A stretch of 64,000 nt of DNA from positions 194,857 through 258,856 of the forward strand of contig JAKASI010000003.1 of NCBI GenBank assembly GCA_021828185.1, read 5' to 3'. The position numbers and the translations under genes are program-made. Below the pieces are notes generated by a model. The model had not been told where the DNA came from and did not search any database. It saw only the letters and a list, made by a program, of their open reading frames with translations. This DNA is from an archaeon. GTDB taxonomy: Archaea; Thermoproteota; Nitrososphaeria; Nitrososphaerales; UBA183. This document shows, one piece after another, positions 7,727 through 64,000 of the stretch; the first letter of the stretch is position 1, and the number at the start of each line of letters is the position of its first letter.

Positions 7727-9634
7727 CTATGGCGACCAGCAGGCGGCCTTGGCGTTGTCATACCAGGCATTGCAGTTGTGAACGACAGCGTTAGAGACGA
7801 GATAGCTCTGGTCTCGCGTGGCTATGTTGTACACTCTTCCCACATAGAAATGTCTACTGACTTTTTGAATCGGAATGATGAAGTATGCGTCCCTTATCTT
7901 GACCCGCCTGTGTTGGGAACTAGGGCAGAGCACCCCTCTGTAGATGAGTTTTCGATCATAATGTACCCTGTCTGTCCAACCTTCTTCAATCCCGCAGAAC
8001 TGTCCCAGCCTGGCCCAAGCCAGCTGAATCTGTTCCGCCAGAACCTTGGACACTGTATTGAAGATGACTCGGTTTCTCTTGTTCACATGCCCATCACCTG
8101 AGAGGTATCCCGCGAGAAATGATTGTAGAATTCGGGTATCTCTATTGTATAGAATGAATTCTGGAATCTTCTTGTTCTTGACCCCAGCGCCGCAATGCTT
8201 CTGGAGAAACTCGCCAAGCGGTGCTGAGCTGAATGCGACTCGAATTGCGTTCCTGGAGCGACGTCTAATCGTCGCCTTGTAACCCATTGAAGATGCGAAT
8301 GCTACGACCCTCCTAGCAAATGCCATCTCCTTTCTATGAAGAGTCAAGATTATTGTCCTCCCATAGACGCAACCCTCTGCGACGTACAGCCCCACAAACC
8401 AGGCACTCACGCTCGATAGTCTGAACGCCCTAGAATAGGTCCGGGCCCCTCTGTGACACCATTGGGTCTTGCGAAGAGGGAATAGACTTCGGTCCATTCG
8501 TCCGATGATTCTTGGAAGGACAAGATAGTCTCCTTGGAGGAATGCATGTTTTTCCAGCACATCACCTGCATTCTTCCAAACTGGCGATGAATATTCGACA
8601 GGTCCCTTCCTTTCAGCGGTGCCCCTGACGACAAGAACGGGATGATTGGGCGTTAGTTTGAGGGGCAACAACCCCGTCCCCTTGACTTCGACCAGATCTC
8701 CATTATAGTGACGCTCGAACGTCTTAACCACGCTCTCGAGCCCTGTTCTCCCAACGACGGAGTCTCCGACTTCGTACTGGGAGATTTGCTTGTTATCTCC
8801 CAAGACAAGCTCGCTGGGGGGCAGACAATACTCTCCCGTGGTTACTCGCTCACATTTGAAATTCTCATCGCAGAAATCACAGAGCTCTTCGCTTCCTATC
8901 ACCCACCCGGTCCCTGGGTTCATGTCAGTCTTGAGCTCGGTTAACTCCTCGGAGAGTCCCATGGTCAGGGTGTCGAAGGGACTCGAAGTGCACTGATTGC
9001 AACCGGAGGCGCAGGGGAATGGCTCGACGGTGTAGAAGTGAGTACCATCGGTGTTATGGAAATCGCAAAAAGCTTGACAGGATGCAGAACCGCCGAGGGT
9101 GACTGTGGTCCCCGGTGGGAAGAATATGTTGTAAGCGCCCTGCTGTCCGAGTTCCGGAATCAGTCCCAACTTTATCCAGGAAGCGATCTGGGGACCAATC
9201 TGGGAGTCGTCGATGGTTGACGGAGGGTCGGCTGTGATGATTTTGCTCGGGAGGACGGTCCCCTGCCCTACGTTGTACTCGGAAAGCCCGCCGGAATAAC
9301 TCTTGTCGGCCTCGATATCCATGACGGCCTTGTCTACGCCTTTGGGGGCGAACGGTATCGTCTTCCCCTGCCAATAGCTCCCCCAGTAGATGTTCTGCCA
9401 TCTGTAGCCCGACTTCCAGAGGGGCCCGCCGTTGTACACAGCCAGACTGCCCCCCTTGACCTCCTTTGCCGGGAGCATCTGCGCGTGGCCGCAGGGGGAA
9501 GCGATGTGCCAGACTCCAGAGGCCAACTTGCTGCCGGAAGATGCCCTCACGCCCACATGGTCGAAAGCCGAGACAGGTCTTCCGCAGACGGGGCAGTCGC
9601 GTCGCCCCCTGCACTGTTCGCAGGTTCGCTTCAT
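7727..9634 (-). CDS. exordium/metalloprotease-like protein interrupted by an intein
   Basis: A 635-residue precursor. Removing residues 270-620 (intein) leaves a 284-residue host protein. The host has a Cys-rich zinc-ribbon-like start (CEQCRGRRDCPVCGR) and a C-terminal region that resembles secreted exordium-like or zinc-protease-like proteins: GLSEELTELKTD in place of the usual HELAEAxTDP, then MNPGTGWVIGSEELCDFC, and after splicing EYCNAWYDNAKAACW. The first His of the metalloprotease motif is Ser here, so proteolysis is doubtful. No signal peptide is visible. It lies downstream of the phosphoesterase gene on the same strand, with CAGGAGCC as a possible ribosome site. Confidence 0.75.
   Translation of the reverse strand: MKRTCEQCRGRRDCPVCGRPVSAFDHVGVRASSGSKLASGVWHIASPCGHAQMLPAKEVKGGSLAVYNGGPLWKSGYRWQNIYWGSYWQGKTIPFAPKGVDKAVMDIEADKSYSGGLSEYNVGQGTVLPSKIITADPPSTIDDSQIGPQIASWIKLGLIPELGQQGAYNIFFPPGTTVTLGGSASCQAFCDFHNTDGTHFYTVEPFPCASGCNQCTSSPFDTLTMGLSEELTELKTDMNPGTGWVIGSEELCDFCDENFKCERVTTGEYCLPPSELVLGDNKQISQYEVGDSVVGRTGLESVVKTFERHYNGDLVEVKGTGLLPLKLTPNHPVLVVRGTAERKGPVEYSSPVWKNAGDVLEKHAFLQGDYLVLPRIIGRMDRSLFPLRKTQWCHRGARTYSRAFRLSSVSAWFVGLYVAEGCVYGRTIILTLHRKEMAFARRVVAFASSMGYKATIRRRSRNAIRVAFSSAPLGEFLQKHCGAGVKNKKIPEFILYNRDTRILQSFLAGYLSGDGHVNKRNRVIFNTVSKVLAEQIQLAWARLGQFCGIEEGWTDRVHYDRKLIYRGVLCPSSQHRRVKIRDAYFIIPIQKVSRHFYVGRVYNIATRDQSYLVSNAVVHNCNAWYDNAKAACWSP
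7775..8827 (-). mobile_element. LAGLIDADG intein (351 aa)
   Basis: An in-frame intein from Cys270 to Asn620 of the 7727-9634 precursor. Block A is CLPPSELVLGD; block B GLLPLKLTPNHPVLVV has the TxxH; the two LAGLIDADG helices are WFVGLYVAEGCV and FLAGYLSGDGHV, both with the acidic metal ligand; blocks F/G read FYVGRVYNIATRDQSYLVSN, then the terminal AVVHN followed by Cys+1. All residues for splicing are present, so splicing and nuclease activity are both likely. The DNA is visibly more AT-rich than its neighbours, a sign of transfer. The C-terminal extein is only 15 residues. Confidence 0.95.
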
Positions 9635-62069: not shown

Positions 62070-62295
62070 CACAGCTCGAAAGGCCGTACGTCGCCGTGTA
62101 TAGGGTTCATTGCGCCTCCGCCGGGAAGGACTCATCCTGCGTTGCGCTATAGGTGCCAGACCGGCTGAACAAGTCGCCGAAGCTTCTTGCGTACACCGCT
62201 GGTCCTTCAACGCGATCTTCTATCGCTGCGCTCCAAGGCCCGCTCCTCCAGCTTGCGCCGGAGGTTAAGGCCTAAGGCCAACTCTTCTCGGGAGT

Positions 62296-62328
<33 letters not shown>

Positions 62329-62453
62329 ACGATTGCTTAGCTGCCCGGCGACGCCCTCTCGGACGACCGGTACGCCAGAGGCAACGCCCCGCTGTTCCTC
62401 TCGTACTGGGCAGGGCTTCCCCTCAGTGAACCACCGCTTCCATCAGGTAGAGG

Positions 62454-62498
<45 letters not shown>

Positions 62499-62893
62499 GA
62501 TGGGCGAGCAGCCCCACCCTTGGCCCCTGCTGCAGGACCAGGATGGGAAGAGCCGACATCGCAACTTTACCCAGGCTTACGCCCGGAGTTAGACTATGTC
62601 TTCACCCACGAGCACTCGTGGGGTCGGCGTATGATGGCCTCGCTTGTGTGGCACACCCGACGCCCTTGCGGGCTGTCGCACCATGTCGGAACATGATGTG
62701 CTCCCTTGCGGGAATGGTCGAGCTAGCCGCGACGGCCATCTCATTACGCACACTTCTGCGCGCTCAGTCGTTACGGGGTCACAACGGAACGGCCGGACCT
62801 CCGCCCAACTTGCGTTGGACATTTTCGGTGGCATCCGGGATGTTAGGCTGCGCCATGCTCAGATTTTTTGGGACGCTTGCGCGACGAAGGAGT

Positions 62894-62992
62894 ATGTCGA
62901 GGCGGCAGACAGCTTCGCTCATCGCGGTCGTTGTGGCCGCGTTTTTGCTTCTTCTGTTGCTCACCATTTTGACACCTCCACTTCCTACCTGA
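62894..62992 (+). CDS. intron-borne small hydrophobic peptide
   Basis: A 32-residue frame: basic start (MSRRQTA), one membrane helix (SLIAVVVAAFLLLLLLTIL) and a proline-rich end. GAAGGAG lies 1-7 bases upstream of the ATG. First of four plus-strand frames inside the 23S intron. Unrecognised. Confidence 0.4.
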   Translation: MSRRQTASLIAVVVAAFLLLLLLTILTPPLPT

Positions 62993-63064
62993 ACTTGGCG
63001 CTTGCCCTTGGCTGCGCTTTGGCTTTCGTCAACCTCACTATGCCCCTGCGGTCGTTGATTGGTG

Positions 63065-63241
63065 ATGGCTTCGGGAAGGACCTTCCGCCAGTTTGGTCTG
63101 GGGAGCGGCCTCTTCATCATCGCCATCAGGCTTGTGCTGTTGCTGCTTGAGCACGACCCTGTCGTCTTGCTGGTAGTCCCGGCGTTGACCGCGGCGTTGC
63201 TCTTGCTCGAGGCACTGCGTAGAGTCTCGACGAAACCGTAG
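63065..63241 (+). CDS. intron-borne small membrane protein
   Basis: A 58-residue frame with a long hydrophobic stretch (SGLFIIAIRLVLLLLEHDPV, VLLVVPALTAALLLLEALRR), probably a helical hairpin with a charged turn (EHDP), and a basic end. Codon use resembles that of genes elsewhere in the window. It lies on the strand opposite to the rRNA. Unrecognised. Confidence 0.5.
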   Translation: MASGRTFRQFGLGSGLFIIAIRLVLLLLEHDPVVLLVVPALTAALLLLEALRRVSTKP

Positions 63242-63299
63242 CGCTTCTTGCGCCTTTCGCTTCGCCAACTTGATAACGCCCTCGTGGGCGCGGCTGTCG

Positions 63300-63488
63300 A
63301 TGGACAGACGGAGGCTGTCACCTGTGTTCTTGGTGCTGGCACTGGTCTTCTTCTTTGCCGACGTCTTGACCCCAGGGAGTTCTTTCCCGGGGCTGGGCGC
63401 GGCAGGAGAGGTGCTGTACTGGACTCTGTATGTCGTGAGCCTCTTGTTCATCGTCCTGTTCGTAGCCTTCAGAGGACGAAGCTACTAG
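63300..63488 (+). CDS. intron-borne two-helix membrane protein
   Basis: A 62-residue frame: MDRRRLSPVFLVLALVFFFA, a short loop DVLTPGSSFPGLGAAGE, a second helix VLYWTLYVVSLLFIVLFVAF and the basic end RGRSY. This is a textbook hairpin with positive charges at both ends facing the cytoplasm. Strongest coding candidate in the intron. An in-frame TTG at 63270 is an alternative start. Confidence 0.55.
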   Translation: MDRRRLSPVFLVLALVFFFADVLTPGSSFPGLGAAGEVLYWTLYVVSLLFIVLFVAFRGRSY

Positions 63489-63505
63489 CGCTGCCATCCG
63501 CGGTG

Positions 63506-63724
63506 ATGCCTGACCGAACCTACCTTTCCAATCAGATGAAAGAACTCGTATTAGACAGGGCTGTATCGTCGCCTTCGATGGCGGCGAAGCTTGTCGTCCG
63601 CTGTGCAGACTGCGGCTGTTCTCCGGAAGAGTGCCGAGAGGCGCCCTCCGCGGTCGACTGCCCAAACTGCAAGCTCGACGAATGCTGCTGCTGGAACGCC
63701 GTTCACGGCGTCACTGAAGGATGA
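63506..63724 (+). CDS. intron-borne Cys-rich protein
   Basis: A 72-residue frame: a polar helix (SNQMKELVLDRAVSSPSMAA) then a Cys-rich region VVRCADCGCSPEECREAPSA, VDCPNCKLDECCCWNAVHG with nine Cys arranged as possible zinc knuckles. It ends just before the 5' part of the intron core. Unrecognised; it may be a zinc-ribbon DNA- or RNA-binding protein. Confidence 0.45.
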   Translation: MPDRTYLSNQMKELVLDRAVSSPSMAAKLVVRCADCGCSPEECREAPSAVDCPNCKLDECCCWNAVHGVTEG

Positions 63725-64000
63725 TCTTCCACCTGACCGGGTGCTGAAATCCCGTTGGACTTCCCTCGGCGTTGCCCTCTCCCGCTCTTCCCAACTAACC
63801 GCGTTGCCGCGGCTCCTGGTTCAAGGAGGTCGGGTTTCGCCGATATAAGCCGATACTCGTTTTATTCGGAAAACTTCAATCGCGTTACCACGATTCTGCC
63901 CCAAGGCCCTTATGGGCCGAGGTACCAAACCGCGGGGTCGATTGGAGCTCTCGCCCGCGACGAGCCTGTTACCCCTGGGGTAACTTTTCTGTCACCTCCA

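Follow-up and report, generated by a model that had tools for sequence, protein, structure and literature searches.

What kind of element splits the 23S rRNA gene of this archaeon, and how might it persist when the genes that it holds are small, lie mostly opposite to the rRNA and include no recognisable homing enzyme? The gene, on the minus strand at the edge of our window (the whole stretch of 64,000 nucleotides that was analysed), is interrupted at L2500 by an insert of 1358 nt (Table 1). Its 5′ exon, read from 64000 to 63920, closes with ...GGTACCT at 63920, and CGATGTCGG opens the 3′ exon at 62561. The split between U2500 and C2501 described in the initial annotation is confirmed by these exact junctions, and the same site is uninterrupted in 14 related genomes among the loci read. 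The best model for the 3′ exon alone was LSU_rRNA_archaea; a bacterial LSU model ranked first only where the scanned stretch included part of the intron. At gathering score, the 23S gene was the sole Rfam match in the whole 64-kb window. ARAGORN found no tRNA in the same stretch. Position 2500, given in E. coli numbering, agrees with the LSU/2500 site of published archaeal IA3 introns. In a 2018 survey, LSU/2500 occurs in two archaeal IA3 records, which makes L2500 a known group I site (PMC6125680).

Table 1. Coordinates of the intron, its exons, helices and antisense frames in the window.
Feature	Position	Strand	Remarks
Group I intron (IA-like), 23S rRNA L2500	62562..63919	-	final G at 62562; exon junctions located to the nucleotide here and in relatives, Rfam match, covariation
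5′ exon of 23S rRNA, up to window edge	63920..64000	-	sequence and homology to relatives
3′ exon of 23S rRNA, archaeal	62130..62561	-	LSU_rRNA_archaea, 365.9 bits
P1 hairpin and internal guide sequence GGGGCA (63897-63902)	63897..63919	-	C-G, C-G, splice-site U-G wobble, one A-C mismatch
P2 hairpin	63878..63895	-	70/75 cells pair; as many in 0/300 shuffles
P3 5′ strand UCGGC	63849..63853	-	partner 62624-62628; 75/75 cells pair, 4/300 shuffles as many
P4 5′ strand	63838..63843	-	partner 63766-63771; 90/90 cells pair, 0/300 shuffles as many
P6/P6a 5′ strand GUCCAACGG	63752..63760	-	partners 62778-62780 and 62782-62787
P6 loop insert with cargo genes	62788..63751	-	between P6a strands
P7 5′ strand GACUG in R element CCCCGUAACGACUGAG	62765..62769	-	invariant in 15 introns; preceding C would bulge
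P3 3′ strand GCCGA	62624..62628	-	core alignment
P8 hairpin CCCACGAG/CUCGUGGG	62605..62622	-	100% paired; double changes in 3/5 tested pairs
P7 3′ strand in S element GAAGACAUAGUC	62592..62596	-	core alignment
P9 hairpin	62571..62586	-	100% paired; double changes in 5/6 pairs
TM1, 45-aa hydrophobic frame	62855..62992	+	antisense; alternative ATG five codons upstream; hydrophobicity beyond shuffles
TM2, 58-aa hydrophobic frame	63065..63241	+	antisense; hydrophobicity beyond shuffles
TM3, 62-aa protein, two hydrophobic stretches	63300..63488	+	antisense; 12 metagenomic homologues
TATA-like box CGTATTAG	63547..63554	+	31 nt upstream of Cys-rich start; 6/8 consensus positions; same place in G018
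Nine-Cys (Cys-rich) small protein gene, 48 aa	63578..63724	+	antisense to rRNA; frame open from 63536; homologous frame in 6 introns

The insert belongs to a family. Relatives, defined as those of a draft genome with a protein 83% identical to one of the window, were searched with rRNA-plus-intron DNA as query, and 71 of 101 related genomes matched at E ≤ 1e-5, many of the matches being short. Among the loci read, 14 genomes hold an intron at the same nucleotide (323-1292 nt), and of the 14 with an empty site two (G025 and G028) have a 23S rRNA only 73-74% like that of the window and may be contaminants. A covariance model of the intron 3′ end (R1), built from 12 of the 15 introns with G005, G042, and G043 excluded for their long P8 loops, matched 13 genomes strongly (E below 1e-15) and three weakly (E 0.004-0.005) out of 400 in the class; it added a 399-nt intron in G539, bringing the total to 16, that of the window included, with 15 relatives. 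Four further contigs (G017:C1, G008:C156, G026:C11, and G004:C16) stop 5-12 nt within the 3′ end of the intron, probably because the assembly broke at points where exons almost alike in several species lead into introns that differ.

Fifteen of the introns were aligned over their core, and the pairing cells were tested against 300 shuffles. UACCU at 63920-63924, the end of the 5′ exon, is the 5′ strand of P1, in which the pairs U-A, C-G, C-G, and U-G form in all 15 introns while the second pair is A-C in nine and A-U in six; the U-G pair is made in every case by the splice-site U. The last intron nucleotide is G in all 15 and in G539 as well, so that the exon-end U, intron-end G, P1, and S element on which the initial annotation had leaned are all present and conserved across the alignment. 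All cells pair in P5 (45/45), P6 (45/45), and P7 (75/75); P6 and P7 never vary and, being invariant, lend no covariation support, nor does P1. P3 shows a change from CG to UA in three introns, and P6a pairs in 85 of 90 cells with double changes in six of six pairs. The pairing cells of P2, P3, P4, P5, P6a, and P9 were matched by only 0-4 of 300 shuffles; when doubly changed pairs are counted alone, P2-P5 and P9 are matched by 76-165 of 300 shuffles and P6a stands out (11/300). For P8 and P9 taken together over 12 introns, 100% of the cells are paired, with 38 double-change cells as compared to a shuffled mean of 10.8, as high a count arose in 0 of 500 shuffles, and slid registers all give 44-58% paired.

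Extra hairpins P7.1 and P7.2 between the P7 5′ and P3 3′ strands and a bulged C in P7 are hallmarks of IA introns. P7.2 pairs in 73 of 75 cells, P7.1 was recognised by eye, and a C directly precedes GACUG in 15/15 introns. Searched for exactly, the R-element pattern turned up in one genome (G006) of 398 sampled from the phylum. We read the insert as an IA-type group I intron, with IA3 as its most likely subgroup. The Rfam model Intron_gpI (RF00028), which the initial annotation had proposed to run on the insert, does return a match, though a weak one of 23.9 bits (E = 0.002) that spans only the last part of the intron (62570-62705) and stays below the gathering score of 50 bits. Likewise, all eight relatives scanned match below that score (24.1-35.2 bits, E 4e-6 to 0.009, the upper value coming from the 323-nt intron of G085 with E = 4e-6), and the P3 drawn by the model in the window differs from that of the core alignment. 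In the 2018 survey, too, RF00028 had no significant archaeal matches and subtype models were required (PMC6125680). The group I class is supported by the conserved and covarying fold, even though the Rfam model remains below its gathering score.

Size differences between introns fall mostly in the P6 loop, and recognised cargo lies within this loop in eight of the 16. In the intron of the window, the four frames on the plus strand noticed at the outset are indeed found, including the one with nine Cys. A homologue of this Cys-rich frame is present, always antisense, in six introns (window, G018, G034, G006, G033, and G032), whose proteins share 17 invariant columns besides the start Met. Differences by codon position number 192/152/347, and the pooled pN between introns is 0.26 vs a pS of 0.74 (pN/pS about 0.35); by these counts the gene is under purifying selection. 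At E ≤ 0.01, 79 of 201 related genomes have Cys-rich matches (weak and intron ones counted), and chromosomal homologues are common outside introns: of 25 such loci fetched, from fewer than the 79 matching genomes, 20 were scanned by Rfam, none of which has rRNA within up to 1.5 kb on either side. Five draft genomes (G006, G018, G032, G033, and G034) show no Cys-rich match besides the one in their intron, and G003 has no match anywhere in its genome. The family also has metagenomic homologues (P0001-P0039). A weak match (E 5.8e-5) in another relative, at G047:C1:1006996-1007118, sits shortly past the estimated 3′ end of an intronless 23S gene. Neither Pfam nor NCBIfam offers a known family for the protein, and the PDB gave no meaningful match (best E 0.11 by sequence and 3.7 by fold, from a model with mean pLDDT 83.5). 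Its tree, built on 43 columns, has no starred branch and is too short for counting captures.

The other three frames of the window intron are hydrophobic. Each begins with ATG, is 45 aa or longer and includes a strongly hydrophobic stretch; 1000 dinucleotide shuffles contain such frames at an average of 0.043, none of them has as many as three, and five attain the same total length. TM3 has metagenomic homologues (P0041-P0052) that are 76-94% identical; an alignment of 11 sequences, drawing on 10 of the 12 relatives, contains 28 invariant columns, which shows conservation at the level of the predicted protein. Two of these relatives, P0042 and P0044, start with a translated conserved intron element adjoining TM1 and are therefore most likely located in introns like that of the window. 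No TM3 was found in viral contigs, nor in 61 related genomes in a search run without a positive control. Small hydrophobic antisense frames also occur in the introns of G003, G033, and G032. Of the four antisense frames, two have relatives elsewhere, the Cys-rich frame (five other introns) and TM3 (metagenomic relatives); for TM2, no homologue was found among 5.8 billion proteins.

A second kind of cargo runs along the intron strand. GYD-domain genes are present in four introns, singly in G006, G033, and G035 and as a tandem pair in G032; two of these five genes were scanned, and each gave a match to Pfam PF08734 (E 5e-10 and 3e-12). With a pN of 0.36 vs a pS of 0.78, these predicted genes show conservation and purifying selection, and chromosomal GYD copies exist in several genomes, G033 included. 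The notion that the cargo is all antisense accordingly applies to the window intron and its four plus-strand frames but not to the family, in which the GYD genes share the strand of the intron. As to a homing endonuclease, Pfam recognised none in seven frames of the window, ten proteins from the window and relatives, or ten frames of relatives, and the shortest introns, at 323-412 nt, could hardly accommodate such a gene. The initial annotation was right that the insert has no recognisable endonuclease, for the frames scanned with Pfam, and its idea of a cargo cassette standing where an endonuclease might be is supported by the conserved non-endonuclease genes of the P6 loop.

Many cargo starts are preceded by promoter-like boxes. 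The consensus used for scoring is that of the archaeal TATA box, and the distances from box to start fit archaeal promoters with leaderless mRNAs. An octamer agreeing with the consensus at six or more of its eight positions precedes 10 of 14 starts by 24-36 nt, as compared to 13-15% of background positions, and one agreeing at seven or more precedes 5 of 14, as compared to 2.4-2.6%. The clearest cases are the four GYD genes tested (CTTATATC, CTTAAATA, GTTAAATA, and TTTATATA). The scan covered 14 of 17 located starts; left out were the second of the two GYD genes in G032 and, with their unclear starts, the hydrophobic frames in G033 and G032. The scoring was not blind, as the boxes had been seen by eye beforehand and the GTG starts of G018 and G032 had been picked from the protein alignment. 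We propose that the cargo genes, with putative archaeal promoters of their own, may therefore not depend on the rRNA for their expression.

Exon and core identity correlate with r = 0.83 over 78 pairs from 13 introns, a value that excludes G032 (an extra insertion of ~100 nt disturbs the exon) and G043 (short exon) and drops to 0.15 over 105 pairs if both are kept. The insertion of G032 (L045), which lies in the 3′ exon at the window equivalent of about 62473, is possibly a second 23S intron of another kind. A tree of the core groups the introns of the window, G018, G003, G034, G006, and G033 with a support of 87/91, below the level that the tool marks with a star. The best reading of these patterns is a mainly vertical inheritance of the L2500 intron, and the simplest history is one old intron whose P6 loop gains, loses, and reorders genes. 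The new kind of intron mobility that had been considered at first finds no evidence here, with intron and exon divergence running together among the 13 introns and only loosely once the two disturbed rows are added. Outside any rRNA gene, a truncated copy of the intron 3′ end occurs ectopically, together with a short piece of 3′ exon, in L149 (G041:C7:10800-13800, minus strand, ~2200-2350), downstream of what by eye is a transposase-like frame and with small hydrophobic antisense frames still open nearby; perhaps it is a relic of a cargo-bearing intron.

Taken together, we consider it very probable that the locus holds a group I intron that is passed on mainly by vertical descent and has independently expressed small genes in its P6 loop. 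The L2500 intron would be co-transcribed with the 23S rRNA and then excised by its own ribozyme, a self-splicing that we infer: in P1, the guide sequence would pair with the exon end UACCU, and the second splicing step would use the terminal G. The P6 loop would carry small host-type genes, namely antisense ones for the Cys-rich and membrane proteins and, in relatives, intron-strand ones for GYD proteins. They would use archaeal promoters of their own, with a TATA-like box ~30 nt upstream, probably yield leaderless mRNAs, and be expressed independently of the rRNA.

That the insert might instead be a bulge-helix-bulge intron, cut out by the archaeal splicing endonuclease and only accidentally resembling a group I intron, would agree with the usual type of archaeal intron in the 2018 survey (PMC6125680). 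Such introns have two 3-nt bulges around a 4-bp helix at their junctions, and a 4-bp central helix can be drawn in two of 15 introns (G085 and G077), yet with only one or two of six flanking pairs. This helix is absent in the window and in 12 of the other 14 introns, the best candidate at the window junctions, with three of four central and two of six flanking pairs, was rejected, and the group I core is both conserved and covarying at a known group I site, all of which makes this explanation hardly credible. Quite improbable, too, is an intron that is still mobile and relies for its homing on an endonuclease gene at another place in the genome. Such collaborative homing is known from phages (PMC3984707), and the window codes for a 635-aa LAGLIDADG protein at 7727-9634 on the minus strand (LAGLIDADG_3 domain, E 1.7e-13), where GC is lower (0.518 at 8001-9000). 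However, nothing ties this protein to the 23S site; it resembles parts of several NCBIfam models for other proteins, including one named intein-containing, but far below all their cut-offs, and the joint divergence of exon and intron described above argues against homing.

The cargo itself could be unexpressed, consisting of decaying chromosomal gene inserts that illegitimate recombination has trapped in a tolerant loop. Insert size and content do vary, half of the introns are without recognised cargo, the G003 genome has no Cys-rich match, and TM2 has no homologue found. Nevertheless, the purifying selection on Cys-rich and GYD frames between introns, the invariant columns of TM3, and promoter-like boxes at a similar distance from many cargo starts speak against decay, and we regard this account as unlikely, if more plausible than the other two.

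The intron itself is of a known kind, being an archaeal IA3-like group I intron; it is the cargo that differs. The archaeal IA3 introns described by Nawrocki, Jones, and Eddy in 2018 likewise have archaeal hosts, IA3.2 and IA3.3 (LQMQ01000054 and LQMP01000030) residing at LSU 2500 with about 800 nt, and the large P6 insert of IA3.1 carries a LAGLIDADG gene, whereas the window intron has small host-type genes in P6 (PMC6125680). In that survey, LAGLIDADG endonucleases, found in 21 of 39 introns, are the only Pfam-recognised proteins of those introns, unlike the family studied here with no endonuclease in the frames scanned (PMC6125680). The closest precedent for a host gene inside a large-rRNA group I intron is the fungal mitochondrial rnl intron mL2449 with rps3; this gene is free-standing in relatives, and its essential nature has been proposed to ensure retention of the intron (PMC5626475). 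However, mL2449 is mitochondrial and carries one ribosomal protein gene, as compared to several small, mostly antisense genes with promoter-like sites in an archaeon (PMC5626475). In nuclear rDNA introns such as Dsq.L2066, too, a protein gene runs antisense to the rRNA intron, a His-Cys endonuclease gene described as expressed in vivo; yet these are homing endonucleases of eukaryotes, while the antisense genes of the window intron are not endonucleases in the frames scanned (PMC9548176). The rRNA insertion sequences of CPR bacteria are also 23S group I introns of uncultivated prokaryotes, some of which contain an open frame and some none, but 274 of 278 Pfam-recognised frames in their 23S inserts are homing endonucleases (PMC11270868). 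In the open-access literature, no description of archaeal rRNA introns with small host-type cargo was found.

Prokaryotic rRNA group I introns are mostly viewed as parasites whose gene, where they have one, is for a homing enzyme. Conserved and selected host-type cargo, in some drafts the sole copy found, offers a direct way to test how an intron without visible mobility persists, and the intron may be retained through indispensable cargo. Tentatively, and with somewhat more doubt than confidence, one may go further and picture the rRNA intron as a protected gene island in which small host genes, with promoters of their own on both strands, have their sole copies: its loss would cost the host those genes, so that it would persist by cargo dependence and not by homing, and antisense transcription through the rRNA gene would be tolerated or even used. 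The family thereby lets one ask how cells handle genes that oppose a highly transcribed rRNA gene, and it would give the mitochondrial rnl intron with rps3 a prokaryotic counterpart, one that apparently arose on its own.
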